A model generated the notes under the pieces. That model made no database searches. It was not told where the DNA came from and was given only the letters and a program-made list of their open reading frames with translations. A program made the position numbers and the translations under genes. DNA of 64,000 bases from Parerythrobacter jejuensis (lineage in GTDB: Bacteria; Pseudomonadota; Alphaproteobacteria; Sphingomonadales; Sphingomonadaceae). The stretch covers positions 1,116,001 through 1,180,000 of the forward strand of contig NZ_BAAAZF010000001.1 of assembly GCF_039536765.1 (NCBI RefSeq). The letters run 5' to 3'. Of this stretch, positions 24,615 through 55,706 are shown piece after piece (within the stretch, counting starts at the first letter, position 1; each line of letters opens with the position of its first letter).

Positions 24615-24644
24615 CAAGCTGGGACGGGATCTTGGAAATTCGTG

Positions 24645-40538: not shown

Positions 40539-40539
40539 C

Positions 40540-41958
40540 TCAGGCCGGCAATTCGCCGTTGATATATTTCATCAGCGTGGTCTGGAAATGCCGGACCCGG
40601 CTGTCCTGGTACTTGCCCAGTTCCAGCATACCGTCCTTCATCGCCTTCATCCCGGTCTGGACATGCGGCAAATTGGCCATGTCCTGATCGAACACATTTG
40701 CCAGCTGCGGGCCCATCTTGTCCGCCGCCCAGGCAAAGGGCTCATCGTCGGGTATATAGGTCCGCTCGACAGCGCGCGGCCGATCCTCGCCCTTCGGTGT
40801 CGGGAACAGCAGCCGGATTTCCATCACGCACCAATCGGGCGTATCGCCCGGCAGCCAGCGATAGACCAGCGTCGGCAGATATCCGATCCACGGGCTGAAA
40901 TTGGGGAAGATATTGTAAGTGAAATTATCGAGGATCTCGGCATCAGACGCTTCGGAATAGTCATAGCCGTATTGCTCGGTGAAGCCTTTACGCCCGGCCT
41001 CTGCCAGCACTTTACGCGCCATCAACGGATCGTCGGCATCAAACTCGTCACCGCCATCGCCCGCAGCAAAGCGGCGATTGGTGCTTGCATCGGCGCCACC
41101 GGAGAACTCGTTCATTTTCTCCAGAACATAGTTCTGGTCTTTCCCGTAGAGGTGCGGACTCAGGACACCGGACGGTGTGATCGCGCGATTGAAATGGTCA
41201 CCGATATGATCGTAGCGACTGTTTGCATCCCCCAGGAATGGCAACAGTTGCGGGTGCGTGGTGATCGAATGCCACGCCTCCATGAAAGCTTCCGCCGTTG
41301 CTTTCCAGTTGGCCGGAATCCGCTTCGCGATCCACATGCCAGTAAATCGGTTCTCGAAATCATACCGCTCATAATGGCTGGCCGCCGGGCCGAGCCATTC
41401 GGCAAAATCGGGCAGGTCATCATTCTCCGTGATCATGATGAAACCATGCCATTCTTCCACCCGGACTTCGGGCAGGCTCATATCCTTCTCTTCGAGATGC
41501 TTGAAATCCCATGCGCAGGGGATTTCTTTCAGGCTGCCATCATTCTTCCAGGCAAAACCATGGAACGGGCATTTGAGCTGGGTGGTGGTACCGGATTTGG
41601 TGCGCAGCTTGCGCCCGCGATGCAGGCAGGCATTGTAAAACGCCTTCACCGTCCCGTCTTGTTGGCGGACCAGCAGGTAGCTGCGATCATTGATCTCGAA
41701 CACGACCGTATCGCCAGGATCAGGCATTTCATCGACGCGCGCCGCGAACAGCCAGACATTGGGCCACAGCCTCTCCCGCTCCAGCCGCGCGAACTCTTCG
41801 CTGACATAGGACTCGGTCGAGAGAGCCTCGGTCCCCATGTCGGCGATCGTCTCTTCGAACAGGTAATCGGGCGGTGTGCGGGTATCGCCTTCCAGCATCT
41901 CGGTATAGTCCATACCGGGGCAGCGATCATCGCGGACGACCTTGGTGCTCTCGTTCAT
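40540..41958 (-). CDS. Rieske non-heme iron oxygenase, large subunit
   Basis: The second Rieske oxygenase has 472 residues. [2Fe-2S] ligands: C111 and H113 (ACLHRGRK), C130 and H133 (CPFHGF). The iron site is NWKATAEAFMEAWHSITTH. It is longer and clearly different from the one at 30379, so it is not a recent duplicate. The start at 41958 has GAGAGGG about 10 bases upstream. It forms a pair with the SDR that follows directly, and is divergent from the VOC gene. No small subunit or redox partner is near. Confidence 0.9.
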   Translation of the reverse strand: MNESTKVVRDDRCPGMDYTEMLEGDTRTPPDYLFEETIADMGTEALSTESYVSEEFARLERERLWPNVWLFAARVDEMPDPGDTVVFEINDRSYLLVRQQDGTVKAFYNACLHRGRKLRTKSGTTTQLKCPFHGFAWKNDGSLKEIPCAWDFKHLEEKDMSLPEVRVEEWHGFIMITENDDLPDFAEWLGPAASHYERYDFENRFTGMWIAKRIPANWKATAEAFMEAWHSITTHPQLLPFLGDANSRYDHIGDHFNRAITPSGVLSPHLYGKDQNYVLEKMNEFSGGADASTNRRFAAGDGGDEFDADDPLMARKVLAEAGRKGFTEQYGYDYSEASDAEILDNFTYNIFPNFSPWIGYLPTLVYRWLPGDTPDWCVMEIRLLFPTPKGEDRPRAVERTYIPDDEPFAWAADKMGPQLANVFDQDMANLPHVQTGMKAMKDGMLELGKYQDSRVRHFQTTLMKYINGELPA

Positions 41959-42057
41959 CGAAAAGAACCCTCTCACATTGCGCAGTTTCGATTACGCATT
42001 TCATGCCACAACGTGGCCATGAGTTATCCTAGCGTAACTGTGAGGAGTGAGGCAAAA

Positions 42058-42600
42058 ATGGCCGTCGCGAACAGCATATCCGCCCTGGGCCCTGTCATGC
42101 AGCTGGCCTTCGTCCCGAGCGACTTTGATGCCGCCATCCGGCATTGGACTCAGACCATGGGCGTGGGGCCGTTTTTCCTGATGGAGAGCATCGCGCTCGA
42201 CGATATGCGCTATTGCGGGGAACCGACCGAAGCCGTCTTCACACTGGCGCTGGCCTATTGGGGCGACATGCAAATCGAACTGATCCGGCCGGAAAACGAC
42301 GCGCCTTCGCACCTTTCAGGTGACTACGGGGTGCGGGATCGATTGCACCATACCTGCCTGCTGCTCGACGATATCGCAGATGCTTACGCAGCCTGCGAGA
42401 AACATGGCGCGAAAATCCTGGTCGAGGGCAAAGTGGGCGACGAAGGCGCGGTGATCTATGCCGATCCGGGTGGAGGCCCGGGCCACGTGGTCGAAATGCT
42501 GCAAACCCAGCCCGGAACCCATGATTTGTTCGGGATGATCAAACAGACCGGCATCGGCTGGGACGGAAAAGATCCAATCCGCTCGCTCGGAGCGGGTTAG
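42058..42600 (+). CDS. VOC family (glyoxalase-like) protein
   Basis: The 180-residue protein has two vicinal-oxygen-chelate beta-alpha-beta modules: LGPVMQLAFVPSDFDAAIRHWTQTMGVGPFF and RLHHTCLLLDDIADAYAAC. VOC proteins include epimerases, lyases and extradiol dioxygenases. The length and single repeat pair fit a glyoxalase/methylmalonyl-CoA-epimerase-like enzyme better than a two-domain extradiol enzyme. Start 42058 follows GAGGAGTGAGG. It is convergent with the LuxR gene, 3 bases apart. Confidence 0.8.
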   Translation: MAVANSISALGPVMQLAFVPSDFDAAIRHWTQTMGVGPFFLMESIALDDMRYCGEPTEAVFTLALAYWGDMQIELIRPENDAPSHLSGDYGVRDRLHHTCLLLDDIADAYAACEKHGAKILVEGKVGDEGAVIYADPGGGPGHVVEMLQTQPGTHDLFGMIKQTGIGWDGKDPIRSLGAG

Positions 42601-42603
42601 CCG

Positions 42604-43419
42604 CTATTCGCTTGCGCCGAGATAACCCAGCTGGCCGGCCTTGAAGATCGCCTGCGCCCGGTTGACGGCGTTCAGTTTTTCGCCCGCACGATGGATATGA
42701 TAGCGGATCGTCGCATGGCTACGCTCCAGTATCATACTGATTTCCATGTCCGTCTTGCCGATCGCAGCCCAGCGCAAGCACTCGACTTCGCGCTTGGACA
42801 AGACGCAATCGCTGGGAATACGCCGCTTAGCACGATGCGCCTGGACGTAGCCTGCAACAAAACGCCTGACAGCCGCTGACAGCAATTCGCCATGCAGAGC
42901 GAAATCCTGCGAAAGGTCCGTCTTGTCCAGATCTTCGGATATGAAACTGTTGGCCGAGATCTGCGCGAATGGCAGATGGATTGGAACAACGATGGCTGCC
43001 TTGCACAAGGATCGCTTTTCAAAATCGCGCAGGTCGATTTCGTCGAGATAGCTGTTGGCCCACATGGTGTGGAAGCCATCGGCATTGACCCAGAACGGCT
43101 CGCTCTCGTAGCGACAGGCCCGTGGCAAGGGTGAATGCAGCGCAAGGCGATGGTCTTCCCACCACCGCATACCATCATCCAGCCAGCCGAAGATGTCTCC
43201 GTTGATGATCGTGCCATCGGCATCAATCATCGGCTCCTTGGACGAAATGTCATCGCACGTGCTGACCCTGAACCCGCGTTCGCGAGCCAGTTCTGCCAGC
43301 GCAACAGCTGCATCGTGAATATCCTCGGTGCTGCGAACGGTCACTGTTTCCAGAACCTTTGACACCGACGAGCCGATCCGCTGTCGCGGGAATTCAACTA
43401 CCTCTGCCCTCATGTGCAT
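42604..43419 (-). CDS. LuxR-family transcriptional regulator
   Basis: A 271-residue regulator with a C-terminal GerE/LuxR helix-turn-helix (LSKREVECLRWAAIGKTDMEISMIL, then ATIRYHIHRAGEKLNAVNRAQAI). The N-terminal about 190 residues resemble an autoinducer-binding-like sensor domain, only loosely recognisable. No LuxI-type synthase is in the window, so it would be a LuxR solo, perhaps sensing a pathway compound. The first ATG of the frame (43419) was chosen; an upstream TTG is unlikely. It is the only regulator in the catabolic region and is next to the end of the long minus-strand operon. Confidence 0.82.
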   Translation of the reverse strand: MHMRAEVVEFPRQRIGSSVSKVLETVTVRSTEDIHDAAVALAELARERGFRVSTCDDISSKEPMIDADGTIINGDIFGWLDDGMRWWEDHRLALHSPLPRACRYESEPFWVNADGFHTMWANSYLDEIDLRDFEKRSLCKAAIVVPIHLPFAQISANSFISEDLDKTDLSQDFALHGELLSAAVRRFVAGYVQAHRAKRRIPSDCVLSKREVECLRWAAIGKTDMEISMILERSHATIRYHIHRAGEKLNAVNRAQAIFKAGQLGYLGASE

Positions 43420-43490
43420 AGGTATCCACGATTTTTGCGGGATGCACAAACGATTCGTGCGCTTGACGCAACGTCACAGGTATCGATCAT

Positions 43491-43519: not shown

Positions 43520-44728
43520 TCAGAGCCCGAGCACGGTCTTGGCGATGATGTTTTTCTGGACCTCGTTCGACCCGCCAAAAATGGTGGACGCGCGATTGTT
43601 GAGGTACTTACCCATCGCGATCTGGGCGAGCGGGCTCCCCACCGGTTCCGGCGCTTCGTTGCCATAAAGCGGGCGGTCCATCGGCAATTGCAGGGCGTCA
43701 TAGCCCAGCAATTCGAGGCGGAGAGTATCTACTTCCTGGCCGATATTGGCCCCCAACAGCTTGGTCAGCGATGTTTGCGGACCGGGCGAGCGACCTTTCG
43801 CCAATTCGGCCAGAATGCGCAGCTCGGTCACTTCCAGCGCCTCCGCCTCCAGCTTGGCGCGGGCAAGCCGGTCGCGGAAGCGCGGATCATGCGCGATGGC
43901 GCCATTGACGCCAGAAGGCTGCTCTTGTGAGAGGTGTTCCAGTTCTTCGATTGTCTGCAGCAGCTTGGGCGCAAAACACGAACCGCCGCGTTCATTCTCG
44001 AGCAGGAACTTGGCAATCGACCAGCCCTGCCCTTCCTCACCGATCCGGTTGTCGACGCTTGTCTTCGCATCGCTGAAGAAAACCTGGTTGACCTCGTGAT
44101 CGCCGGACATGGACAGGATTGGCGAAATCTCGATCCCGGGCTGGTCCATCGGCAGAAGGAGGAAAGTGATCCCGGCCTGCTTTTTCACTTCGGTATTGGT
44201 CCGCACCAGCGCAAAAATCCAATTGGCATGGTGGGCATGGGTGGTCCAGATCTTGGACCCGTTGACGACATACTCGTCACCCTCGACACGCGCACTGGTT
44301 TTGAGTGATGCCAGATCAGATCCGGAACCGGGCTCGGAATAGCCCTGGCACCAGTAATCGGTCCCGGAGAGAATGCCGGGCAGGAAACGCGCCTTTTGCT
44401 CGGGCGTGCCGAAAGCGCAGATGACGGGGCCGACCAGCCGCAAGCCGAGGATCGACAGTCCCGGCGCGCCGGCCAGAGCACACTCCTTTTCGAAGATGAA
44501 CTTCTGCGTCGGCGACCATCCAGTGCCGCCATCCTCCTTGGGCCAATGATAGGCGACCCAGCCTTTTTCATAGAGGATGCGATGCCATTCGAGCCCGATA
44601 TCCGGCTCGACAAAAACGCCTGGTGTTCGCCGCGCGCCATCGCGCAGGCTTTCAGGGAGTTCCTCTTTCAGGAAGCTCCGCACTTCTTCGCGAAATGCCA
44701 GGTCCTCTGGCGAGAATTCCATATCCAT
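43520..44728 (-). CDS. Acyl-CoA dehydrogenase (FadE-like, long partner)
   Basis: The 402-residue protein has the acyl-CoA dehydrogenase fold: N-terminal helices from FSPEDLAFREEVRSFL, mid-domain YSEPGSGSDLASLKT, and C terminus NNRASTIFGGSNEVQKN. At the position where MCAD-type enzymes have the catalytic glutamate (YEGT) it has FGGS. This suggests a different base or a heteromeric enzyme with the shorter homologue at 47841. It is the last gene of a long minus-strand operon. It probably desaturates a branched or cyclic acyl-CoA. Confidence 0.88.
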   Translation of the reverse strand: MDMEFSPEDLAFREEVRSFLKEELPESLRDGARRTPGVFVEPDIGLEWHRILYEKGWVAYHWPKEDGGTGWSPTQKFIFEKECALAGAPGLSILGLRLVGPVICAFGTPEQKARFLPGILSGTDYWCQGYSEPGSGSDLASLKTSARVEGDEYVVNGSKIWTTHAHHANWIFALVRTNTEVKKQAGITFLLLPMDQPGIEISPILSMSGDHEVNQVFFSDAKTSVDNRIGEEGQGWSIAKFLLENERGGSCFAPKLLQTIEELEHLSQEQPSGVNGAIAHDPRFRDRLARAKLEAEALEVTELRILAELAKGRSPGPQTSLTKLLGANIGQEVDTLRLELLGYDALQLPMDRPLYGNEAPEPVGSPLAQIAMGKYLNNRASTIFGGSNEVQKNIIAKTVLGL

Positions 44729-44732
44729 GAGG

Positions 44733-45488
44733 TCAGTCCCCCTCGCGCATTGCCCAGGCGATGGAGCGCCTCAGCAGGTCATAATAGACATCGTAATTCC
44801 ACGCGCACATTTCCTTGTGCGGATAGAAATCGGCCATGCCCGGCAGATCATAATGCCCGCGGCAATGGCCCAACGTGTTGTACACGATCCGCCCCTTGCC
44901 CATGTCACGGGTGTAAAGGATCGGGACCGCAGTCTTGTCCCATTTCTCCTCGACGAAACCGGTCGCCTCGCCTTCGAACGTGGTTTGCATCAGCGTCTCG
45001 ATCTTGGCTGTCGTGTGCGACAGATAGAGCTCGTCGACCACTTCGAAATCCTCGATCCCGCGTGTGAATTCGTGATCCTTGTTGACGACCTCGACCGGAA
45101 ACGGACCGATTGGCGGATGCGCTTTGAACTGGGTGCCCAGCATTTCCATCATGTCGGGGCGGTCATTGGGCGTATCGACCAGCCCGCTTTCAGTGAAAAC
45201 GAGGATCGAATTGGTCCCGTGCAGTGCCAGCCATTTGCCGCCGCCTTCAACCCAGGCACGCAATTGCTGCGCCTGTTCCTTCGTCGGCATCAGATCACAG
45301 GTATAGGTGATCAGGAACCGGCATTGGTCGAGCCGTTCCAGCCCGGAATAGTCGCAACCAACCGTGGTGCGGATATGCGGATGCTCGGCCAACAGCTTGA
45401 GCAGCTCCAGCCGCGGGTAGTCGATATCGTGATACTTGCCGGCAGCAATGAAATGTGCGTCGATCCGTGTCGTTGGTTGGTCACCCAT
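44733..45488 (-). CDS. ThuA-like domain protein
   Basis: The 251-residue protein has the ThuA/class I glutamine amidotransferase-like fold: FIAAGKYHDIDYPRLELLKLL, GGGKWLALHGTNS, then HEFTRGIEDFEVVDELYLSH and GKGRIVYNTLGHCRGHYD. ThuA-like proteins are known from trehalose/sucrose use but their chemistry is largely unsettled. Sugar genes are absent here. It sits in the operon between an SDR and an acyl-CoA dehydrogenase (4-11 base gaps). A second ThuA-like gene is at 50621. Confidence 0.8.
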   Translation of the reverse strand: MGDQPTTRIDAHFIAAGKYHDIDYPRLELLKLLAEHPHIRTTVGCDYSGLERLDQCRFLITYTCDLMPTKEQAQQLRAWVEGGGKWLALHGTNSILVFTESGLVDTPNDRPDMMEMLGTQFKAHPPIGPFPVEVVNKDHEFTRGIEDFEVVDELYLSHTTAKIETLMQTTFEGEATGFVEEKWDKTAVPILYTRDMGKGRIVYNTLGHCRGHYDLPGMADFYPHKEMCAWNYDVYYDLLRRSIAWAMREGD

Positions 45489-45499
45489 GGCGTTTCCCC

Positions 45500-46270
45500 T
45501 TAACTTCTGATCGACCCACCGCCATCGACCGTAAAGTCGACACCGGTCGTGAAGCTGGCATCGTCACTGGCCAGAAACAGGACTGCCTTCGCAACTTCGT
45601 CCGGCTCGCCGATCCGGTTCATCGGGTGGGTTGCGGCAAAGTTGGTCTCGATATTCTCCGGCGTATCCATGCCCGAATATTTATAGCGGTCATACATCGG
45701 TGTGCGGATCGCGCCGGGATGCACCATGTTCGCGCGTACCGGCACGCCGCGCTCCGCACAATCAAGCGCAACCGAGCGTGTCAGGCCGACCAGCCCCGCC
45801 TTGGACGCGCTGTAGGCGGCGACGAAAGCGGCGGGGCGGATAGCGATCATCGAACCGATATTGACGATAGAGCAAGGTTCCCCCGTTGCCTCCATCGCCG
45901 GCAAGGCCGCCCGGCATCCGTAGAACGGGCCGACCAGATTGATATCGATGGTTCGCTGCCAACTGTCGAGATCGACATCGACGACATTGCCCGGTTCGGA
46001 AATGCCGGCAATATTGCACAGGGTTGTAATCTTGCCGAAGCTGTCGACCGTCGCTTTGACGGCGGCGTTCCACTGATCGAGATCGCGCACATCAAGCTGG
46101 AAGGCCTGGGCGCGATCCCCCAATTCATCAGCCAGCGCCTGCGCCTTGTCGATCTGGATATCGCACAGCATCACGCTGCCGCCTTCTTCGACCATCTTGC
46201 GCCCGACTGTCGCGCCGATCCCTTCGGCTCCGCCCGTAACCAGTGCGACTTTTCCGTCCATGCGGCCCAT
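45500..46270 (-). CDS. SDR family oxidoreductase
   Basis: The 256-residue classical SDR has LVTGGAEGIGATV, acidic LCDIQ (NAD-type), CNIAG instead of NNAG, and catalytic IVNIGSMIAIRPAAFVAAYSASK. The context, between a thiolase-like gene and a ThuA gene, suggests a role as hydroxyacyl-CoA or alcohol dehydrogenase, supplying or using the thiolase-like partner's substrate. Confidence 0.9.
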   Translation of the reverse strand: MGRMDGKVALVTGGAEGIGATVGRKMVEEGGSVMLCDIQIDKAQALADELGDRAQAFQLDVRDLDQWNAAVKATVDSFGKITTLCNIAGISEPGNVVDVDLDSWQRTIDINLVGPFYGCRAALPAMEATGEPCSIVNIGSMIAIRPAAFVAAYSASKAGLVGLTRSVALDCAERGVPVRANMVHPGAIRTPMYDRYKYSGMDTPENIETNFAATHPMNRIGEPDEVAKAVLFLASDDASFTTGVDFTVDGGGSIRS

Positions 46271-46279
46271 ATGTGTTCC

Positions 46280-47428
46280 CTATCTTTGCAGGATCGCGAC
46301 GGCGCTCAGGCCCGGTGCGCCATAGACATGGCTGTAGCCAGTCTTGGGCATGGTTGGCACTTGGCGCTCGCCTGCCCGTCCACGCAATTGTTCGACATTC
46401 TCGTAAACCTGACGCAGGCCTGATGCTCCGATCGGTTCTCCGCAAGCGATGCATCCGCCATCGGTATTAATCGGCATCTTGCCGCCAATTTCCGACCAGC
46501 CTTCGGACAGCCATTGTTCCTGATCACCGTCCTTGCAAAACCCGTTCTCGGCCATGTGCATGATTTCAGCGCCGCTTTCAGTGTCCTGCAATTGCGCGAC
46601 TTCGATGTCTTCGGGGCCAATGCCCGCACCTTCGAAGGCAGCTTGCGAAGCGAGGATAGTCGGCTTGCCGCCATCCTTCACACTGACGCCGGCCTGAAAC
46701 ACTTCGAAACTGTCAGGCGGCCGTGTCCGCACGGCGATATTGGCAATCTTGACACCATCCGCGCCCAGTTCCTTCATCTTCTTTTCCGATGCCAGGATCA
46801 GCGCGACGCCGCCTTCCGCCGGGGCACAGAACATGTACTTCGTCAGCGGATCATTGATCATCGGGGCGTTCATGATCGTGTCCAGATCGATCTCGCTGCG
46901 CCGCCAGGCATGGGGCGTCTTCGCTCCATTGCGAAACGCCTTTTCGGCGACGCGGCCCAGCGCCTCTCGGCTGATCCCGTGCAATTGCATGTACCGCTGA
47001 ATCTTGAGCGCGAAGAATTGTGTAGTTAGCATCATTCCGGTCTGGCCATACCATTCGGGCAAACCGTAATCCGATGGCTTGGCGTTGAAAGCCCCGCGCG
47101 GATGCTTGTCGAACCCAACGGCCAGGGCCAGATCATACATCCCGCTGGCAATCGCCTGTTGCGCCGATACCAGCGCGCTGCCGCCGGTGGCACAGCCATT
47201 GGCCACATTGGTGAAAGGCAGGCTGGTCAGGCCCAGCTCGTTGACCATGATGTCAGCGCTACCTGCCGCTGCCGAACCGCCATAGGCGCATTCGATATCG
47301 GGCCAGTCGAGCCCGGCATCCTGCAAAGCCTGCCGGACGGCGAAGACACCCTGCTCCCGGCCCGAGCGTTCCTCGGTCCGCCCGAACGGGTGGATCCCGG
47401 CGCCGATAATATAGACATTGTCGCTCAT
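46280..47428 (-). CDS. Thiolase-like protein (lipid-transfer/aldolase type)
   Basis: The 382-residue protein has the thiolase fold with C79 in NGCATGGSAL, at the nucleophile position. Other thiolase catalytic motifs are changed: the GHP histidine motif reads GEP (E331 in ACGEPIGASG), the HD motif reads QLQD (around 280), and the terminal cysteine motif is missing (GLSAVAILQR). These changes are typical of the SCPx/Ltp-related proteins, including the Ltp2-type retro-aldolases of steroid side-chain degradation. It overlaps the DUF35 gene by 4 bases, the usual partner of that type. Confidence 0.87.
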   Translation of the reverse strand: MSDNVYIIGAGIHPFGRTEERSGREQGVFAVRQALQDAGLDWPDIECAYGGSAAAGSADIMVNELGLTSLPFTNVANGCATGGSALVSAQQAIASGMYDLALAVGFDKHPRGAFNAKPSDYGLPEWYGQTGMMLTTQFFALKIQRYMQLHGISREALGRVAEKAFRNGAKTPHAWRRSEIDLDTIMNAPMINDPLTKYMFCAPAEGGVALILASEKKMKELGADGVKIANIAVRTRPPDSFEVFQAGVSVKDGGKPTILASQAAFEGAGIGPEDIEVAQLQDTESGAEIMHMAENGFCKDGDQEQWLSEGWSEIGGKMPINTDGGCIACGEPIGASGLRQVYENVEQLRGRAGERQVPTMPKTGYSHVYGAPGLSAVAILQR

Positions 47429-47844
47429 GCTGCGGTTTCTCCTGCATCCGCATCAGGGCGGAAGGCAAAGGTGGTGTGCTGATCGTTGAAGGGGACGATG
47501 CAGAAGGTCATCGGCATGCCCAGCCGCAAGTCTTCCAGTTGTGCATCGACAATCCGGCTCTCGACAATCACTTCGCCCGGCAGTTCAACATAGCCGATCA
47601 GGAAGGGCTGGAAATCATGCGGCCCCTCGCCCGGCCCTTCATAGGGTTCCTTCGGGCGGAAATCCTGGCTGGTCCATGACCACAGCTTGCCGTGACGCGA
47701 CAACTTGTAGGGCTCGACATCGCGAGCCGCATCGCCCTGCGGCATCGGGAATACGATCTCGCCAGATGGTAGCCTGCCGCCCATTAGATGCGGCTGGGCA
47801 TCATCGCTCCACAGCGCCGTGTCGATAGGTGTCAAATCGCTCAT
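47425..47844 (-). CDS. DUF35 OB-fold protein without zinc-ribbon cysteines
   Basis: The 139-residue protein has the DUF35 layout: a short ribbon-like region (about 20-45) and an OB fold (FLIGYVELPGEVIVESRIVDAQ...). DUF35 proteins bind thiolase-like partners and complete their active site. The ribbon normally holds four cysteines, but here the region reads LMGGRLPSGEIVFPMPQG with none, and the only cysteine is in FCIVPF. It overlaps the thiolase-like and the acyl-CoA dehydrogenase genes by 4 bases each, indicating tight coupling. Confidence 0.82.
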   Translation of the reverse strand: MSDLTPIDTALWSDDAQPHLMGGRLPSGEIVFPMPQGDAARDVEPYKLSRHGKLWSWTSQDFRPKEPYEGPGEGPHDFQPFLIGYVELPGEVIVESRIVDAQLEDLRLGMPMTFCIVPFNDQHTTFAFRPDADAGETAA

Positions 47845-48920
47845 GCTGCCTCTGCGTAGTCGACCAGAACAGCGCCCGGGTCACCGAACAGCTTGTTGAG
47901 AAGGAGGACGCGCTTCATCGCGTGGCCGATGGCCAGTTCGTCGGTCACGCCCATGCCGCCATGCATCTGCACGGCCTCGCGCGCAACGCGATCAACCTGC
48001 TCCCCGATAAAGGCTTTGGCTCCGGCGCAAGACTTGCGCCATCCGGCTGCATCTTCGTGATGGCCCAAGGCTGCGCGATACAACATCGAACGCGCCTGTT
48101 CGACGGCGGCGTAGCATTCCACCAAGCGGTGCTGGAGAGCCTGGAAGCTTCCTATCGCCACGCCAAATTGCTCCCGCTCTTTCACGTAAGCAACTGTATC
48201 GTCGAGGAGGCGTTGCCCGAGGCCGAGCATCTCGGCCGCGGCCAGCAAGCGAATGTCGTCGATAATCGGTTCCAGTCCGGCGAGATCCAGATCGAGCTTG
48301 GCCGCAACAGCATTGGTGCAGCGCAGCTCGCTCGCGACGCTGCCATCGGCGATCACGTAATTGCGCCGCTCGACGCCCGATGCATCGGCATCCAGCAGGA
48401 ACAGCCATGTGTCGCCATCATGCTCTGCCGACACAATCAGCGCATCGGCCATCGCTCCGCCCAAGACCAGCGTCTTTTCACCGGTCAAAGCGAACCCATC
48501 GCCATCCTGTTTCGCCGTCATGCCCCGGGCCCGCAAATTGTAACGCTGGCGCCTTTCGGCCAGCGCGCAGGCTGTCACGCGCTCGCCCGAGAGCAGCGCC
48601 TCGAGTGCGCTCGATTGCCCCGCAGCGGCCAGTATTCGCGCCGGCAGCACACCGTTTTCGAGCCAGGGATCGGGAGCGCTGCCCTTGCCCAGAGCCTCAC
48701 CGACCAGGGCAAGATCGACCGGTGAGCCACCCATCCCGCCTTCGTCCTCGCTCGCGACCAACGCAATCAGGCCCAGTTCGGCAAGCTCTTGCCAGCGCGC
48801 TGCGTCATATCCATTGGGCTTGCTGCGAAGCTGGCGGCGGAATTCGGTATCAACCGGCGCGACAAAACGCTCGACCGTAGCTTTGAACAGCTCCTGCTCT
48901 TCGGACAGGTCGAAATTCAT
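47841..48920 (-). CDS. Acyl-CoA dehydrogenase (short partner)
   Basis: The 359-residue protein is a shortened acyl-CoA dehydrogenase: N-terminal LSEEQELFKATVERFVAP, GGMGGSPVDLALVGEALGKG, a poorly conserved flavin-binding mid domain, and C-terminal VQMHGGMGVTDELAIGHAMKR. Shorter homologues of this type form alpha2beta2 enzymes with a longer partner (as in FadE28/29 of steroid degradation). The likely partner is the gene at 43520 in the same operon. It overlaps the P450 and DUF35 genes by 4 bases. Confidence 0.87.
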   Translation of the reverse strand: MNFDLSEEQELFKATVERFVAPVDTEFRRQLRSKPNGYDAARWQELAELGLIALVASEDEGGMGGSPVDLALVGEALGKGSAPDPWLENGVLPARILAAAGQSSALEALLSGERVTACALAERRQRYNLRARGMTAKQDGDGFALTGEKTLVLGGAMADALIVSAEHDGDTWLFLLDADASGVERRNYVIADGSVASELRCTNAVAAKLDLDLAGLEPIIDDIRLLAAAEMLGLGQRLLDDTVAYVKEREQFGVAIGSFQALQHRLVECYAAVEQARSMLYRAALGHHEDAAGWRKSCAGAKAFIGEQVDRVAREAVQMHGGMGVTDELAIGHAMKRVLLLNKLFGDPGAVLVDYAEAA

Positions 48921-50176
48921 GCGATTTTCTCGAAGGTGATCGGAAGGCGCGTGATCCCGCGCAGCAGGATGTTGGGCAGGATCGCGATGCCGCCTTCATC
49001 CGCGACCTGGAAATTGGTCAGGCGGCTCAAAAGCTCATCAAAAGCAACAAACATCTCTTTGCGGCTCAGCATATTGCCGACGCACATATGCGGCCCCTTG
49101 CCGAACGCGACATGGGCGCGGGCATTCTGTCGTTCGATATCGAACTTGTCAGGGTCCTCGAACTTGCGCGGGTCGCGATTGGCCGCAGCATAGCGAAGTT
49201 GCAGCATTGTGCCTTTGGCAATCGATACGCCGCCAAGCTCGGTGTCTTCCCTGACCAGACGCCACATACCCGCAGTTGGTGTTTCGTAGCGCAGCGCCTC
49301 TTCCACCAGGTTCATGATCAACTTGGGATCATTGCCACCTGCAGCAGCAACCGCTTTGGCCATCTGGTCCGGGTTGCGGATCAGTTGCAGCAATCCGCCA
49401 GCCAGCGTCGAGGTGGTTGTCTCGTTCCCGGCAACCATGAATTGCTGCATGATCGACATGATTTCCTCGTCGGTCAGGGGCGTTTCGCCTTCGACCCGGG
49501 CCTCGACCAGATCGGTCAGCAGATCATCGCCGCCATTGGCCCTGCGCTCATCAATCTTGGACTTCATGTATCTCTGGTATTCGACGAAGCTGCGCGCACA
49601 TTCCAGTTCGCGCTCGCGGCCAACCATCTGGCTGAACCGGTCAACCGCAGCGTCAGACCAGGCCTTTACCTGTTTGGGATCCTTGTCGAGCCCGATTTGC
49701 TGAGCGATCATCGCGACCGGAAGCGGGATCGCGAATTCCCCGACAAATTCACACTCGCCTTTGTCGGCAAAGCCTTCGATCAGCTCGATCGATTTGGCCC
49801 GCATGTCCTCTTCGATCGCGTTCACGCGCGGGGCGGAGAAAGCGAGATTGACCAGTTTGCGATTGCGCGTGTGGACAGGATGATCGGCGGTCAGCAGCGT
49901 AGGCGGATTGTCCCAACCTTCAGCCAGAATCGCCTTGATCTCGTCATCTTCCGCACCCATCAGCGCGCTGAAATCATTCGAGAACAATTCCGGCTTGGTA
50001 TTCACCTCGTTGCAGAGCTCGTATGTGAACACGACATGCGTGTTCATCTCCGGAAAATGCTGGATCGCGACCCCGTCCGCATGCGCTTTGGCATAATAGT
50101 CAAACGGGTCGGTCAGTGTTTCCGGAGCGAAAAAGTTCGATTGCTCGGCAGGCTTGTTCAAGGCACGCGCTCCCAT
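48917..50176 (-). CDS. Cytochrome P450
   Basis: The 419-residue soluble bacterial P450 has the I-helix motif VAGNETTTSTLAGG, the ExxR motif in VEEALRYETP, and the heme-thiolate C365 in FGKGPHMCVGN. Such enzymes hydroxylate terpenoids, steroids or fatty acids with a ferredoxin pair, which is not near. The start ATG 50176 was preferred over the TTG three bases upstream. It is the fifth gene of the 54563-43520 operon and overlaps the short acyl-CoA dehydrogenase gene. Confidence 0.92.
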   Translation of the reverse strand: MGARALNKPAEQSNFFAPETLTDPFDYYAKAHADGVAIQHFPEMNTHVVFTYELCNEVNTKPELFSNDFSALMGAEDDEIKAILAEGWDNPPTLLTADHPVHTRNRKLVNLAFSAPRVNAIEEDMRAKSIELIEGFADKGECEFVGEFAIPLPVAMIAQQIGLDKDPKQVKAWSDAAVDRFSQMVGRERELECARSFVEYQRYMKSKIDERRANGGDDLLTDLVEARVEGETPLTDEEIMSIMQQFMVAGNETTTSTLAGGLLQLIRNPDQMAKAVAAAGGNDPKLIMNLVEEALRYETPTAGMWRLVREDTELGGVSIAKGTMLQLRYAAANRDPRKFEDPDKFDIERQNARAHVAFGKGPHMCVGNMLSRKEMFVAFDELLSRLTNFQVADEGGIAILPNILLRGITRLPITFEKIA

Positions 50177-50234
50177 CAAGAATTATGCGAGGAGCTTAGA
50201 CCTTCCGAGCCCGCCTGCGCGATGCGTGAATTTG

Positions 50235-50624
50235 TTAGGGAGCTACGCCTGCTGCAGCGAAGCTGGTCTGGAACTCGGCCATGTCGAAATAGTCCCGCCA
50301 GTGCGCGATCTTGCCATCGCGATCCAGTTCGAACGTGCCCATCACACGTATCCCGGCCGAATTGCCGTTCGTGAATGTGAAATTGTCGGTCCGCTCGGTC
50401 AACACGGTGGCGCCATTGGCGGCTATCGCATGGGTAATCCATGCGCAGCTGTCCACATTGGCCATAAAGCCTGCGACGGCTTCGCGCATCGCAGCCTTTC
50501 CCACGATCGGGTCCATCGGAATATTGTGCCACACCACATTGTCGGCACACAGATCATACATCGCCTCCATATCGCCGCTGTTCCAGTGATCGATAAAGGC
50601 TTCGACAGTTGCCTGCGCAGTCAT
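50235..50624 (-). CDS. Limonene-1,2-epoxide-hydrolase-like protein
   Basis: The 129-residue NTF2-fold protein matches the limonene epoxide hydrolase family. The catalytic triad of the Rhodococcus enzyme (Arg99, Asp101, Asp132) has counterparts R78 and D80 in LTERTDNF and D111 in HWRDYFD, with identical spacing (2 and 31). That favours true epoxide hydrolysis over a generic SnoaL role. It overlaps ThuA-like gene 50621 by 4 bases and precedes the P450 gene by 58 bases; a P450-derived epoxide is a plausible substrate (inference). Confidence 0.82.
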   Translation of the reverse strand: MTAQATVEAFIDHWNSGDMEAMYDLCADNVVWHNIPMDPIVGKAAMREAVAGFMANVDSCAWITHAIAANGATVLTERTDNFTFTNGNSAGIRVMGTFELDRDGKIAHWRDYFDMAEFQTSFAAAGVAP

Positions 50625-51391
50625 GGATTTCCTCCTGTAAATGCCAGCGCATTGCTGAGCAGCTTGCGGACACTGGGGTCACGATAGGTCGCCGGGCCAT
50701 CCCCGAATTGGAGATAGACCAACGGTGCATCCTGCACCTGTCTGACCCATCCAACGCAGTTCGACCCGGGCGGATGATCCCAACCATCATTGCTAAACAT
50801 CTGGCCCGCAACGGCCGATGCAGCGGAATAAAAATTCTCCGCCGCGAAATCGTGACGGGCGCGGATCAGCGGGGTAATGTCGCTCTCGTTGACCTGCGCC
50901 AGATAGAGCTCGTCGACCAGATCGAATTGTGCCGGGACGCCGCGCGTGACCGGATGGTCGAGCACCACCTCGGCTTCATAAACGACATCATGGCGATAGC
51001 CGGAATCGGGCACCTTCTGGCCCCGGAATTCGCCCGGCTGGTAAAGAAACCGACCGCCCAGCATCTGATGCCATTCCGGCCATTCGGCCCATCCCGCCAA
51101 CGCGTGATGCATCGCCACGGCGCCCTTGCCCGATGCGAAACGGCGCATAATGGCCTCCCGATAGGCTTTGCTGGGCGCACGGGCAGAGACTTTGCCGTCG
51201 GCGAATTCATAGCCGCCCATATCGTAAAACAGCAGCGCGTCTGCGCTATCCGCCGCGCCTGCCGCAACCGCTTGCTCGGCCTCGGGGTGGACGAGATGTG
51301 TCACATCCCAATCCCCCAGCGCATGGATCAGCTCGTCGAAAGGCTCTTCTTCGTAGGGATGCCCGCCAGAAAGTACGAGAAGCGTCGCCAC
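50621..51391 (-). CDS. ThuA-like domain protein
   Basis: The second ThuA-like protein has 256 residues: LLVLSGGHPYEEEPFDELIHAL, GKGAVAMHHALAGWAEWPEW, then DHPVTRGVPAQFDLVDELYLAQ and NCVGWVRQVQDAPLVYLQFGDG. The HP-TRG-VDELYL core is shared with the protein at 44733, but overall the two are divergent. It is coupled to the epoxide-hydrolase-like gene and 2 bases from the reductase gene. Function unknown; two members in one operon suggest a real step of the pathway. Confidence 0.8.
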   Translation of the reverse strand: MATLLVLSGGHPYEEEPFDELIHALGDWDVTHLVHPEAEQAVAAGAADSADALLFYDMGGYEFADGKVSARAPSKAYREAIMRRFASGKGAVAMHHALAGWAEWPEWHQMLGGRFLYQPGEFRGQKVPDSGYRHDVVYEAEVVLDHPVTRGVPAQFDLVDELYLAQVNESDITPLIRARHDFAAENFYSAASAVAGQMFSNDGWDHPPGSNCVGWVRQVQDAPLVYLQFGDGPATYRDPSVRKLLSNALAFTGGNP

Positions 51392-51393
51392 CG

Positions 51394-52404
51394 CTAGGCG
51401 ATCTTCAGGATCATCTTACCCTGGTTGGAGCCGGCAAACAGCCGCATAAAGGAATCATAGGTCGTCTCGATGCCTTCATCGATATGCTCGTCGATGGTGA
51501 GCTTGCCCTCGCCCGCCCAGGCACCCATTTGCGCCGCCCCTTCGGCAAAACGCTCGACATAGTCCGCCACCAGCAGCCCGCGAATTTGCGCCCGCTTGAC
51601 GATCAGCTGCCACAGATTGCGAATGCCGCGCGGCTCCGTGTTGTACTCGCTGATCAGGCCGCACAGCCCGACGCGCGCATAGAGGTTGACGTTCATCAAT
51701 CCGGCATCGAGGATGATCCCGCCGACATTTTCAAAGATGACATCCACACCGTCAGGCGCGGCCTCGGCGATGGCCTGGCGCAGTGCCTCTTCATCCTTGC
51801 CGCGATAATCGATCGCCGCGTCGAAGCCGTATCGCTCGGTCAGCTTGGCGCATTTCTCCGGCCCGCCTGCTATGCCGATTGCCCGGCACCCCTTGATCTT
51901 GGCCAATTGCCCGACCAGCGACCCCACCGCGCCTGCGGCCCCTGTGACCAGGACCGTTTCGCCTTCCTTGGGTTCGCACACTTCCAGAAATCCGAAATAG
52001 GCCGTCATCCCGACTGCACCAAACAGCGACAGGTAGTTCGTAACGCTGGGCACCATGCCCGGATCGATCGGCTGGGTGAATCCACCCGCAACACCGACCG
52101 AGTAATCTTCAATCCCGTTGAGGCCCATGACCCACTGACCGGCCTCGAAACCGTCCGCATTGCTTTGCTCGACCACACCGATCGTGGTCGCCCGCACCGG
52201 ATCGCCCAGCGGGATCGGTGGCATGTAATTGCCCCCGGCATCCATCCAGCCGCGAATGGCCGGATCGAGCGAGGCGTAATGGTTGCGGATCAGGAACTGG
52301 CCCGATGCCAGCTCCGGAGTCGGTTCGGTCACCAATTCGAAGTCATCGGGAACAGGTTCGCCGTCCGGGCGACGCTGGAGGAGGAATCGCCGGTTCTCGG
52401 GCAT
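51394..52404 (-). CDS. CurA-like NADP-dependent oxidoreductase (MDR family)
   Basis: The 336-residue zinc-free medium-chain reductase contains the cofactor motif VTGAAGAVGSLVGQLAKIKGCRAIGIAGG and the domain order of CurA/leukotriene B4 dehydrogenase enzymes, which reduce alpha,beta-unsaturated ketones or enals. A good ribosome site (AAAGGA) precedes the ATG. It follows the molybdopterin enzyme gene by 23 bases. A paralogue of 333 residues lies at 54705. Confidence 0.9.
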   Translation of the reverse strand: MPENRRFLLQRRPDGEPVPDDFELVTEPTPELASGQFLIRNHYASLDPAIRGWMDAGGNYMPPIPLGDPVRATTIGVVEQSNADGFEAGQWVMGLNGIEDYSVGVAGGFTQPIDPGMVPSVTNYLSLFGAVGMTAYFGFLEVCEPKEGETVLVTGAAGAVGSLVGQLAKIKGCRAIGIAGGPEKCAKLTERYGFDAAIDYRGKDEEALRQAIAEAAPDGVDVIFENVGGIILDAGLMNVNLYARVGLCGLISEYNTEPRGIRNLWQLIVKRAQIRGLLVADYVERFAEGAAQMGAWAGEGKLTIDEHIDEGIETTYDSFMRLFAGSNQGKMILKIA

Positions 52405-52427
52405 CGAATATCCTTTGTGTTTTGAGG

Positions 52428-54563
52428 TCAGGCCACTGCAATCCGGACCGGAATGGCGCTTTGCAACGCCTGTCCGGTGATGGGATCAAAGTCGACTTCG
52501 TCGCTGGTAAGCCGGTTGGTGGAACCACCCATCTCGCGCACATTGTGTTTGCCCGCTTCGCTGTCGCCAAACGCATGGGCCATCGAAATCAGCCCGCGCC
52601 GAACCCTGTCGCTGCCCTTGGCAACGCCATGGATGCTGGCATGGGGGCTGGTGATTTCGATCACGTCCCCGTCGGCAATGCCCTGCTGCTGCATATCATC
52701 GGGATGGATGTAGGCAGGGTTGGTGGTGATCTTGCGCCCCAGCCTTTCGAGTGGCTGACCGATCGAATTGAAGCGGGCCTTGGACCGGCGTGAGATCAGG
52801 CGGAAATCAAACCCGGCCGCACGCGCTTCATCCGCGCCATATTTCTCCAGGTTCTTCGGCATGTCACCAGCCGCGAGATCAAATTTGTGCTGTTCCTCTT
52901 CATCTGCAGCCTCGATCACGGGATGCAGATCCTCATAGATCACAGCGGCACCGCCTGCGGCCTGCACATCCTGGCGTACCTGGCTCGGCGGGACGAGGCA
53001 TCCGGCAGTCATCAGGTCGAGGAAGGTCTGCTTGTCCGGGCATTCATCCATCGGCACAGGCCCGCCCGGCAGGTTCATCTGGACGCCCAGATATTTGCCG
53101 ATGCTCCACAGCATTTCATACTCGTCGATCACATCGCCCGGAGCGTCTGCAACCGCCTCTGTGTAACGGGCATAGGCGCGTTCGTGCCACCATTCGGAAA
53201 GGTTGGTGATGTCTTCACGCTCCAGGCATTGCTTGGGCGCGAGCACCACATCGGCGCGTTTCGCACTGGCCGACATCCATGGATCGATCTGCACAAATAT
53301 CTCCAGATCATCGAGCGCCTTGCGCATCTTGAGCTGGTTGGGGAAGCCGACCTCCGGATTGCCGCCCACTGAAATCAGAGCGCGGATCTGCCCCTTGCCC
53401 GGCGTGAGAATCTCGTCCGCCATCACATTGCACGGCATCTCGAACAGCAATTGGCCAAGCCCGCGGAAACGCGATTTGGCCATCCCCTCTACCCCGAACA
53501 TCGGTGCCGGTGGTGCCACTTGCGCACGCTTGGGTGTCTGCGCGGTGTAAACCCCGGGAACGCCGCATTTTTCACCCTCTTGCTTGAACCGGGCACATAG
53601 CGTGTTGAGGCAACAGACGAGGTATTCGGTCAGCGTGCCGTTGCCGGCCATTTCCGGACCGGTCCCGGTAACCGCACACCCTTTCGAGCCATTGGCAAAC
53701 ATGCGAGCTGCGGCAACCAGTTGATCTTTCTCGACACCGGCCCGCTCTGCCGCAACATCAGGCGTAAACGCTGCGACCGCTGCCTTGAGCTCTTCAACCC
53801 CGTCGACATGCGCCGAGACGAAATTGCGATCGTACAATTCCTCCTCGAAAATCACATTGAGCATCCCTGCCAGCAATGCGGGATCTTCGCCCGGCTTCAC
53901 GGGCAGGTAGATATCGGCAAGCTGACCGACTTCGGCCAGCCGCGGATCGGCGACGATCAGCTTGAGACCTTCCTTCTGGCGGTCCCGGATGCGCTTGGAC
54001 GGGCTGAAGGGCGGCACGCCACCGACCGGCGCGTAGTGCGACACGATCGGATTGTTGCCGATAAACAGCGCGACATCCGCGTCGGAGAAATTGTTCACCC
54101 CTCCCATCCATTTGCCATAGCGCTCGGTCGTGAAAACCTTGGCTGGCTGGTCGAGCGTCACCGACGTGAAGAAATGCTTGGTCCCGATCGCCTGGGCGAG
54201 GCTCATCGTGGCCATCATCGCTGAACTGTTCTGGTATCCACCAGACCCCATGAACAAGGCGATCGAATCCGGCCCGTATTTATCGATAATGCGGCGAAAT
54301 TCGCTGCCGACATGATCCAGCGCCTCAGCCATCGGCGTTTCCCGGAATTCGCCGTTTGCATCACGGACCAGTGAGTGGTGCAGGCGATGTTCCGCATTGT
54401 GCGAATCCGGCAGCTCGCGGCCCTTCATGCAGGTGTATCCGCCATATTCGGGATCGTCGGGATCACCTCTGACGGACTGGACTTTGCCGTCCTCCACATC
54501 GACCAGCATCGCACAATTGGCGTGGCAAAAACGGCAAAACGTCTTGTGTGTCTGGATGCCCAT
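52428..54563 (-). CDS. Molybdopterin-dependent oxidoreductase (DMSO reductase family)
   Basis: The 711-residue protein has the N-terminal [4Fe-4S] ligands C10, C13, C17 and C45 (TFCRFCHANCAM, YTCMKG) and the molybdopterin-binding domains of the DMSO reductase family, with the C-terminal dinucleotide domain near residue 600 (NPAYIHPDDMQQQGIADGDVIEI). There is no twin-arginine signal, so it is cytoplasmic. It may hydroxylate or oxidise the substrate anaerobically (as steroid C25 dehydrogenase does) or be a formate-type enzyme. The start 54563 has AGAGAGGATC. It heads the long minus-strand operon. Confidence 0.88.
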   Translation of the reverse strand: MGIQTHKTFCRFCHANCAMLVDVEDGKVQSVRGDPDDPEYGGYTCMKGRELPDSHNAEHRLHHSLVRDANGEFRETPMAEALDHVGSEFRRIIDKYGPDSIALFMGSGGYQNSSAMMATMSLAQAIGTKHFFTSVTLDQPAKVFTTERYGKWMGGVNNFSDADVALFIGNNPIVSHYAPVGGVPPFSPSKRIRDRQKEGLKLIVADPRLAEVGQLADIYLPVKPGEDPALLAGMLNVIFEEELYDRNFVSAHVDGVEELKAAVAAFTPDVAAERAGVEKDQLVAAARMFANGSKGCAVTGTGPEMAGNGTLTEYLVCCLNTLCARFKQEGEKCGVPGVYTAQTPKRAQVAPPAPMFGVEGMAKSRFRGLGQLLFEMPCNVMADEILTPGKGQIRALISVGGNPEVGFPNQLKMRKALDDLEIFVQIDPWMSASAKRADVVLAPKQCLEREDITNLSEWWHERAYARYTEAVADAPGDVIDEYEMLWSIGKYLGVQMNLPGGPVPMDECPDKQTFLDLMTAGCLVPPSQVRQDVQAAGGAAVIYEDLHPVIEAADEEEQHKFDLAAGDMPKNLEKYGADEARAAGFDFRLISRRSKARFNSIGQPLERLGRKITTNPAYIHPDDMQQQGIADGDVIEITSPHASIHGVAKGSDRVRRGLISMAHAFGDSEAGKHNVREMGGSTNRLTSDEVDFDPITGQALQSAIPVRIAVA

Positions 54564-54704: not shown

Positions 54705-55706
54705 ATGCCGACGACAGCACGCCAATGGCTTCTGAACGGACATCCGCGCGGGCGCGGCATTGAAGACGGTGATTTCAAACTGGTCGAAACCGAAATCGCC
54801 GATCCCGGCGAAGGCGAAGTTTTGCTCAAGACCCATTTTCTGGGTTTTGATCCGGCGCAAAAGGGCTGGATGGAGAACATTGCAGACTATGTCGCCCCGA
54901 TGGCGCTTGGCGATGTGATGCGCGGCAGCGGAATCAGCGAAGTGATCGCCAGCAATCATCCCAAATTCCATGTCGGCGAATTTGTCTTCGGCAGTATCGG
55001 CTGGACCGAATATCTGGTCAGCAATGGCGAAGGCCTGACCAAGGTTGAAACCAGCTTGCCGCCGACCGCCGTACTCTCGGTTTTGGGCACAACAGGTGTA
55101 ACTGCCTATTGCGGCCTGTTCAAAGTGGGCAAGCCGGTGGCAGGTGACACGGTGCTGGTTTCCGGAGCAGCCGGAGCGACGGGTTCGGTCGTCGGCCAGT
55201 TGGCAAAAATTGCCGGGTGCCGCGCTGTCGGGATCGCGGGTGGACCGGAAAAGTGCAAATGGCTGGTCGAGGAAGCTGGCTATGACGCCGCCATTGATTA
55301 CAAGGCGGGCGGCGTGAAAGAACAGATCAAGGAGCACTGCCCGGGCGGAGTTGATGTGATCTTCGACAATGTCGGCGGATCGATCCTCGATGATATGCTG
55401 GCCAATATCGCAACCGGTGCGCGGGTTGTTATCTGCGGCGGTATCAGCCGCTACGAGACAGGCGACTTACCGTCCGGGCCGAAGAACTATTTCAACCTGA
55501 TCTTCCGCCGCGCCAGTATGGCAGGGTTCATCGTGCTCGATTGGGCAGCGGAATTTCCTGCCATTCGCAAGCGGCTCGAAGGCTTCGTGCATGATGGCAG
55601 CCTGAGCTATCAGGAAGACATCCAGGAAGGGTTCGAAAACGCGCCCGAAACGCTCAACCGGCTGTTCCGGGGCGCCAATCGCGGCAAGCAGATGCTGAAA
55701 CTTTAG
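54705..55706 (+). CDS. CurA-like NADP-dependent oxidoreductase (MDR family)
   Basis: The 333-residue homologue of the reductase at 51394 shares VSGAAGATGSVVGQLAKIAGCRAVGIAGG and CPGGVDVIFDNVGGSILDDML. It is divergent from the molybdopterin gene, with 141 bases between them, and converges with mobA with one base between stops. It probably reduces an enone or enal of the pathway. The ribosome site is CAGGAG. Confidence 0.9.
   Translation: MPTTARQWLLNGHPRGRGIEDGDFKLVETEIADPGEGEVLLKTHFLGFDPAQKGWMENIADYVAPMALGDVMRGSGISEVIASNHPKFHVGEFVFGSIGWTEYLVSNGEGLTKVETSLPPTAVLSVLGTTGVTAYCGLFKVGKPVAGDTVLVSGAAGATGSVVGQLAKIAGCRAVGIAGGPEKCKWLVEEAGYDAAIDYKAGGVKEQIKEHCPGGVDVIFDNVGGSILDDMLANIATGARVVICGGISRYETGDLPSGPKNYFNLIFRRASMAGFIVLDWAAEFPAIRKRLEGFVHDGSLSYQEDIQEGFENAPETLNRLFRGANRGKQMLKL

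Follow-up and report, generated by a model that had tools for sequence, protein, structure and literature searches.

The 64,000-nucleotide stretch of Parerythrobacter jejuensis DNA analyzed here (contig NZ_BAAAZF010000001.1 of RefSeq assembly GCF_039536765.1, positions 1,116,001 to 1,180,000; hereafter the window) harbors an operon of eleven minus-strand genes at positions 43520–54563, which joins a molybdenum enzyme, a cytochrome P450 and a predicted epoxide hydrolase to a pair of acyl-coenzyme A (CoA) dehydrogenases and a thiolase-like protein. The order of these genes is not a matter of chance, and the operon is widely shared. With a probability of roughly 55%, we propose that it belongs to a catabolic island for the degradation of an alicyclic, terpenoid-like compound via CoA esters.

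The operon status is predicted from the sequence, i. e. from gene order, junctions and signal scans. All eleven reading frames of the minus-strand group, which had been put forward in a preliminary description, are open at the noted positions in the open reading frame (ORF) listing of the window, and in transcription order their junctions measure +23, +2, −4, +58, −4, −4, −4, +9, +11 and +4 bases; four of the ten are thus 4-base overlaps, and the largest gap comprises 58 bases. The first gene encodes the molybdopterin oxidoreductase MopB (52428–54563; 711 amino acids; Pfam PF00384/PF01568/PF04879) with one 4Fe-4S motif of the type CxxCHxxC. It is followed by the MDR-type double-bond reductase MDR51 (51394–52404; ADH_N_2 and ADH_zinc_N), which resembles CurA and prostaglandin reductases, by ThuA1 (50621–51391; PF06283), by SnoaL50 (50235–50624; LEH/SnoaL in Pfam), an NTF2-fold enzyme of the limonene-1,2-epoxide hydrolase type, and by the P450 (48917–50176). 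The second half consists of the short acyl-CoA dehydrogenase subunit ACADS (47841–48920), a DUF35/OB-fold partner protein (47425–47844; PF01796, OB_ChsH2_C), the thiolase-like protein (46280–47428), the short-chain dehydrogenase SDR45 (45500–46270; PF13561/PF00106), ThuA2 (44733–45488; PF06283) and the long acyl-CoA dehydrogenase subunit ACADL (43520–44728). The names assigned earlier were recovered with Pfam, ten in one scan and that of ACADL in another. Internal promoters or terminators, named beforehand as signs of unrelated transcripts, did not exceed background: five promoter-like sites were found where 4.7 would be expected (the P450, thiolase and LuxR genes account for three, all on the minus strand), and six terminator-like sites versus 10.5 expected, with none of the minus-strand ones located in a junction. 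A LuxR-type regulator gene on the same strand (42604–43449; PF00196; listed with a TTG start, which is unsettled) lies about 70 bases past ACADL and may be a twelfth member.

The arrangement recurs in other bacteria. A scan of named genomes by thiolase similarity gave 549 confirmed loci, among the best 80 of which close relatives are over-represented and 60 have enough flank for the whole operon stretch. In 32 of these 60 loci, all titled Erythrobacter, Porphyrobacter, Altererythrobacter or Erythrobacteraceae, the eleven genes appear in the same order and on the same strand, which shows that the arrangement did not come about by chance. Based on tblastn labels, whose distant SDR, MDR or Rieske assignments may be paralogues, the DUF35 and thiolase genes share a strand in all 60 loci and are accompanied on it by MopB in 57, ACADS and ACADL in 55 each, the P450 in 54, the MDR in 53, the SDR in 49, ThuA1 in 48, ThuA2 in 44 and the epoxide hydrolase in 34. 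The LuxR-type gene lies on the thiolase strand in 34 and on the other strand in two. Titles among the best 80 loci further include Novosphingobium, Blastomonas and Sphingopyxis, and at 74–79% identity SAR92/Porticoccaceae, Arenicella and Marinomonas, several of these being metagenome bins.

Within 149 genomes of the family, a thiolase relative (E≤1e-60) occurs in 28, or in 27 when one at 35% identity is set aside; two other genomes from this genus have none. MopB at a minimum of 54% identity is present in 13 genomes, the P450 (E≤1e-110) in 14 and ThuA1 (E≤1e-50) in 15, and each of these genomes also contains the thiolase, although shared ancestry inflates formal p-values for such counts. KshA, taken as a control, is far from such a complete overlap, with nine of its 21 genomes containing the thiolase. 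MopB is located apart from the thiolase in four of its 13 genomes, on another contig of a draft (G113) or at distances of about 23 kb (G030), 78 kb (G089) and 526 kb (G038); hence, the link between the two exceeds mere adjacency. Conserved order and co-inheritance, even of genes that lie apart in some genomes, therefore support the view of one functional unit that was taken at the outset. These data also bear on the alternative that survives best, namely that the genes represent at least two catabolic units, MopB to P450 and ACADS to ACADL, which simply happen to be neighbors. The complete order is confined to Erythrobacter-type records, in the Sphingopyxis loci SDR45, ThuA2 and the epoxide hydrolase are missing from the surroundings of the thiolase, a SAR92 locus retains of the eleven genes only ACADS, DUF35, thiolase and ACADL together with a distant SDR, and the Novosphingobium-type loci L092, L093, L095, L096, L099 and L100 combine MopB and thiolase with no recognized acyl-CoA dehydrogenase in the examined stretch. 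Such a loose collection nevertheless appears unlikely: over most of its length the operon has genes that overlap or almost touch, and MopB, P450 and ThuA1 are, at the thresholds used, co-inherited with the thiolase without exception, even when apart.

The enzymes of the putative acyl-CoA branch have clear structural relatives. ACADL is matched best by 4x28_A and ACADS by Tcur3481 (6wy8_A) among solved structures. Both subunits are encoded on the thiolase strand in 55 of the 60 loci and share 22% identity over 201 residues. Two dissimilar subunits in one operon that match paired structures (4x28, Tcur3481/Tcur3483) characterize the heteromeric steroid type, to which the acyl-CoA dehydrogenases of the preliminary description are predicted to belong. 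Further marks of this type are an alpha2beta2 assembly, FAD at the interface between subunits and turnover of polycyclic acyl-CoA. E246 of ACADL is the same in all 83 rows, and the second of the two positions that we take to be the usual places of the catalytic base (both aligned by eye) is occupied by G385; this fits a base on the large subunit. Pimeloyl-CoA dehydrogenase, the best NCBIfam name for both subunits, was discarded at 229 and 374.6 bits versus cut-offs of 652.7 and 623.85. The P450 finds its nearest solved relatives in the steroid C26 monooxygenases CYP142 and CYP125. MDR51 reaches 321.6 bits with the NCBIfam model for CurA, i. e. less than the cut-off of 440. SnoaL50 matches limonene-1,2-epoxide hydrolase 5aif over residues 1–125 (E=8.9e-60). 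Its residues R78, D80 and D111, presumably the Arg-Asp-Asp catalytic set of that enzyme, are kept in all 44 homologues of no less than 45% identity and in 46, 47 and 46 of all 47 rows, respectively. Since this set within an NTF2 fold is the hallmark of limonene-1,2-epoxide hydrolases, the earlier label of an epoxide-hydrolase-like gene is well founded.

An unusual component is the thiolase-like protein, the residues of which were counted in 100 loci (L029–L128) with 99 distinct sequences. Its best solved matches are BbsB and SCP2 thiolase, and it also aligns with PhlC (5m3k). Cys79, which we take to be the thiolase nucleophile, is found in 100 of 100 loci and aligns with a cysteine of BbsB and SCP2 thiolase. 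Equally invariant are Q281-D282-T283-E284, where the aligned thiolases carry HDxF (HDAF/HDCF), and GE331P in place of GHP, i. e. both canonical histidines are replaced by Q281 and E331. The QDTE motif also occupies, in every locus, the place of the catalytic tyrosine of the steroid aldolases Ltp2 and Sal (YDHF/YDCY); the roles of these motifs in steroid side-chain aldolases are described in PMC12329534. A relative of 34% identity (L028) retains the cysteine and GEP and has QDND instead of QDTE. QDTE and GEP recur in the four plasmid copies examined out of 21 plasmid records with a thiolase match, i. e. those of Novosphingobium, Croceicoccus and two Rhodococcus strains (58–69% identity). In R. 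opacus, a second protein of YDCF type is encoded about 2 kb upstream of the QDTE protein, so the two types can occur side by side, and the alignment distinguishes between them. This plasmid region (L163:11722–16140) thus holds two DUF35-thiolase pairs, one YDCF and one QDTE, in a cluster that additionally encodes a P450, a ferredoxin, an ester cyclase and two CoA transferases.

The DUF35 gene lies directly upstream of the thiolase gene on the same strand in 96 of the 100 loci. The zinc site is missing from its product, with at most three scattered cysteines at the aligned positions in 94 of 94 homologues, and neither a C4 nor a C3H1 zinc finger as in the Ltp2 and Sal partners is present. The two Rhodococcus partners do contain a four-cysteine site (C-x2-C-x10-C-x2-C), which in R. 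opacus lies ahead of the annotated start but within the open frame. Judging from these two examples, proteobacterial members have probably lost the zinc site. As the canonical histidines and the aldolase tyrosine are both replaced, the C–C cleavage that had been ascribed to the thiolase-like enzyme is putative.

Given the relatives of the P450 and of both acyl-CoA dehydrogenases, all of which are steroid enzymes, the genes might constitute a steroid (sterol or bile-salt) side-chain operon that feeds the known 9,10-seco ring pathway. Pairs of DUF35 and thiolase-fold proteins do cleave steroid side chains, as reported in PMC12329534, and the co-occurrence of KshA and the thiolase is somewhat above expectation: of the 21 among the 149 genomes with KshA at E<1e-20, nine also have the thiolase versus 3.8 expected. 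Yet, a profile search with PF19298 did not find KshA in the one-contig source genome (G000). Although a set of 14 control genomes gave a single weak match, the model works in this family, since 27 of the 149 genomes pass its cut-off (34 give any match). Moreover, KshA at E<1e-20 is lacking in 18 of the 27 thiolase-bearing genomes, and even a match at E≤0.001 is lacking in 13 of them. Classical 9,10-seco steroid degradation is therefore unlikely in this organism, and together with the replaced Ltp2/Sal tyrosine and the missing DUF35 zinc site, this makes a steroid side-chain operon slightly more doubtful than the loose collection considered above.

By sequence, MopB is closest to acetylene hydratase (2e7z) and formate dehydrogenases among solved structures. 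T136, D138 and Q139 are invariant in all 66 readable rows (of 67), and the alignments show neither cysteine nor selenocysteine at the usual place of the metal ligand, where T136-x-D138-Q139 stands in an uncertain register. A structure model made to locate the metal ligand was poor (mean predicted local distance difference test score, pLDDT, of 63.7, with residues 135–225 below 50). His14 is present in all 64 readable rows (of 67) at the position where acetylene hydratase has an aspartate directly after the second cluster cysteine. We assume this aspartate to be functionally important, and its replacement argues against MopB being an acetylene hydratase, although that enzyme is the top match among solved structures. 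More distant relatives can be numerous, as in genome G049, which has seven at 35–40% identity and no thiolase match at E≤1e-60.

For ThuA2, a sequence search for solved relatives returned nothing but one chance-level match. The predicted fold (pLDDT 81.2) is most similar to the ThuA-like structures 4jqs and 4e5v, followed by domains of sugar hydrolases and amidotransferase-type folds, and a GHCRGH motif is invariant among aligned homologues. To our knowledge, ThuA proteins are known only from sugar metabolism. In trehalose utilization, ThuA is paired with the sugar dehydrogenase ThuB; here the ThuA domain is present, and a Gfo/Idh-type domain was absent from the 30 nearby proteins scanned with Pfam, which cover part of the neighboring genes. 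Another ThuA gene, on plasmid pNL2 of N. aromaticivorans (L162:28843–29787), stands in a sugar-type context beside a TIM-barrel protein and a sugar symporter.

The operon was initially described on its own. As a unit it stands, but a larger island with LuxR, VOC, Rieske, thiamine pyrophosphate (TPP)-dependent E1 and CoA ligase genes went unmentioned. By eye, this island extends from about 26 to 63 kb of the window and appears to run about 15 kb past its end. Besides a TonB receptor and an MFS transporter, its genes encode Rieske oxygenases, a further P450, E1 subunits, a crotonase, a CoA ligase, a second molybdenum hydroxylase with XdhC, and a flavoprotein, for which NCBIfam lists 4-oxocyclohexanecarboxylate 2-dehydrogenase first and ketosteroid dehydrogenases next, all below cut-off. 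Uptake and degradation of a cyclic compound would fit the receptor, the transporter, the Rieske oxygenases, the flavoprotein and the ligase. In such surroundings, a biosynthetic operon in which the DUF35-thiolase pair forms C–C bonds as in PhlABC and the other enzymes tailor the product is very improbable: the thiolase does align with PhlC and keeps Cys79, and P450, SDR and MDR tailoring enzymes are common in biosynthesis, but its best matches are BbsB, which is degradative, and SCP2 thiolase, no synthase or carrier protein is among the 30 scanned proteins, and the genes beside it encode two acyl-CoA dehydrogenases, Rieske oxygenases and transport proteins of the TonB and MFS types.

Next to the operon, a gene for a VOC/glyoxalase-like protein (42058–42600, plus strand) forms the C-terminal part of an ORF at 40495–42600, with its start set by eye; it lies beside the operon in 33 of the 60 loci and matches the annotated VOC protein of the N. 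aromaticivorans pNL2 cluster at 57%. A Rieske oxygenase alpha subunit (40540–41976, minus strand; PF00355/PF00848) is likewise matched in 33 loci, where a relative is encoded on the thiolase strand. The second CurA-type reductase MDR54 (54705–55706, plus strand) diverges from the operon and is encoded opposite to the thiolase strand in 46 loci. Further away, TPP-dependent E1 alpha (PF00676) and E1 beta (by a 40% match to an annotated one) are encoded at 36260–38214 on the plus strand. In N. aromaticivorans pNL2 and Croceicoccus, genes for E1alpha, E1beta and E2 directly follow the thiolase-acyl-CoA dehydrogenase pair. This order hints that the pathway includes a thiamine-dependent cleavage. 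The island CoA ligase (L129:779–2596, just outside the window) shares 26% identity with a CoA ligase found beside the operon elsewhere, i. e. it is not its orthologue, and its role is uncertain. About 8–12 kb past the window (L129:8270–12460), a second molybdenum enzyme with MoCoBD hydroxylase and Fer2 subunits and an XdhC maturation gene is adjoined by an acyl-CoA dehydrogenase. Right after the island, a frame of 3392 amino acids (C1:1197090–1207268, L129–L130) appears RHS/YD-repeat-like by eye. Within the window, a minus-strand open frame of 3962 amino acids (12729–24617) has no Pfam match, and its GC content differs little between codon positions (0.60/0.57/0.62); perhaps it encodes a giant repetitive surface protein.

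From the observed gene order, conservation, co-inheritance and residues, we infer the individual reactions of an alicyclic degradation route as follows. The CYP125/142-like P450 may oxygenate the substrate, either on a methyl group or across a double bond. Any resulting epoxide would be opened to a diol by SnoaL50. The SDRs could oxidize alcohols and the CurA-type MDR could remove conjugated double bonds, while the island CoA ligase would activate the acid. ACADL and ACADS, conceivably as one heteromeric dehydrogenase with base E246 on ACADL, would then desaturate a bulky acyl-CoA, and the DUF35-thiolase pair may cleave a C–C bond by means of the nucleophile Cys79 and an unusual acid/base set. 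As our best guess, MopB acts directly on the ring or the side chain by hydration or hydroxylation, and the ThuA proteins hydrolyze an intermediate. The chain of hydroxylation, epoxide opening, desaturation and C–C cleavage drawn in the preliminary description is thus a fair hypothesis, with gene identities that are supported and reactions, step order and substrate that are conjectural.

Several observations weigh against this assignment. The operon encodes no MaoC or crotonase-type hydratase; crotonases are encoded once elsewhere in the window and, by eye, once beyond it. A thiolase without both canonical histidines leaves thiolysis unproven, and solved relatives are leads on chemistry rather than on the substrate. 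A motif scan restricted to [2Fe-2S] ferredoxins in the window plus 20 kb returned one match, which is unlike a ferredoxin, and a MopB partner subunit is absent from the conserved neighbors. ThuA2 (E≤1e-50) occurs in 30 of the 149 genomes, 24 with and six without the thiolase, and distant MopB relatives (31–41% identity) in ten further genomes are split evenly, five with and five without it. Finally, the epoxide hydrolase was undetected by tblastn in 26 of the 60 loci, which implies that the epoxide step is not universal.

If the proposed assignment is right, a catabolic unit is common to many sphingomonads (titles Erythrobacter, Porphyrobacter, Novosphingobium, Blastomonas and Sphingopyxis), with a smaller core in gammaproteobacterial records (SAR92, Porticoccaceae). 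The ThuA family and stand-alone MopB enzymes would be given a definite genetic setting within CoA-linked catabolism, and the thiolase fold a clade with an active site unfit for the textbook mechanism. According to a 2021 review, the side-chain degradation enzymes of bile-acid-degrading Sphingomonadaceae were yet unknown (PMC8399759). The operon offers a parts list to be tested for this route, as a candidate only. Taken jointly, we can advance only tentatively an aerobic route, so far unrecognized, by which some alicyclic terpenoid common in nature is degraded. It would combine a new thiolase clade (Cys79, with Gln281 and Glu331 for the catalytic histidines) that cleaves C–C bonds through a new acid/base arrangement, proteobacterial zinc loss in DUF35, a cytosolic stand-alone molybdenum enzyme in place of the missing hydratase, and ThuA hydrolases.

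A description of this operon was not found in the open-access literature searched, and the closest known systems each share a part of it. Cholesterol and bile-acid side-chain modules (the igr operon; ChsE4-ChsE5, ChsH1-ChsH2 and Ltp2; proteobacterial Shy/Sal) have in common a CYP125/142-like P450, an acyl-CoA dehydrogenase pair of heteromeric type and an SCP2-thiolase-fold protein paired with a DUF35 protein. In contrast, the operon described here has no MaoC hydratase, shows QDTE and Cys79 instead of YDHF/YDCY without that cysteine, includes a DUF35 protein without zinc cysteines, adds MopB, two ThuA proteins and an epoxide hydrolase, and occurs in a genome in which KshA was not found. The benzoylsuccinyl-CoA thiolase BbsAB (7pxp) likewise combines DUF35 with an SCP2-type thiolase and a nucleophilic cysteine, but BbsB carries HDAF and GHP, whereas the window protein has QDTE and GEP and a partner without zinc cysteines. 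Limonene-1,2-epoxide hydrolases (5aif, 5aih) match SnoaL50 over nearly the whole length, including the conserved Arg/Asp/Asp set; unlike them, SnoaL50 sits in a CoA-type operon with a P450. MopB shares Pfam domains and the N-terminal 4Fe-4S motif with acetylene hydratase and formate dehydrogenases of the DMSO reductase family, and differs in the aligned His14 for Asp and in a ligand position occupied by neither cysteine nor selenocysteine. The N. aromaticivorans pNL2 cluster (SARO_RS18605-18680) comes close with Rieske, ThuA, acyl-CoA dehydrogenase, LuxR, OB-fold, thiolase, acyl-CoA dehydrogenase and VOC genes, yet in its 31 kb stretch MopB, P450 and epoxide hydrolase were not found, and E1alpha/E1beta/E2 directly follow the acyl-CoA dehydrogenase. 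Hence, as a CoA-linked catabolic operon it is of a known kind, and what is new are its gene make-up and its thiolase clade.

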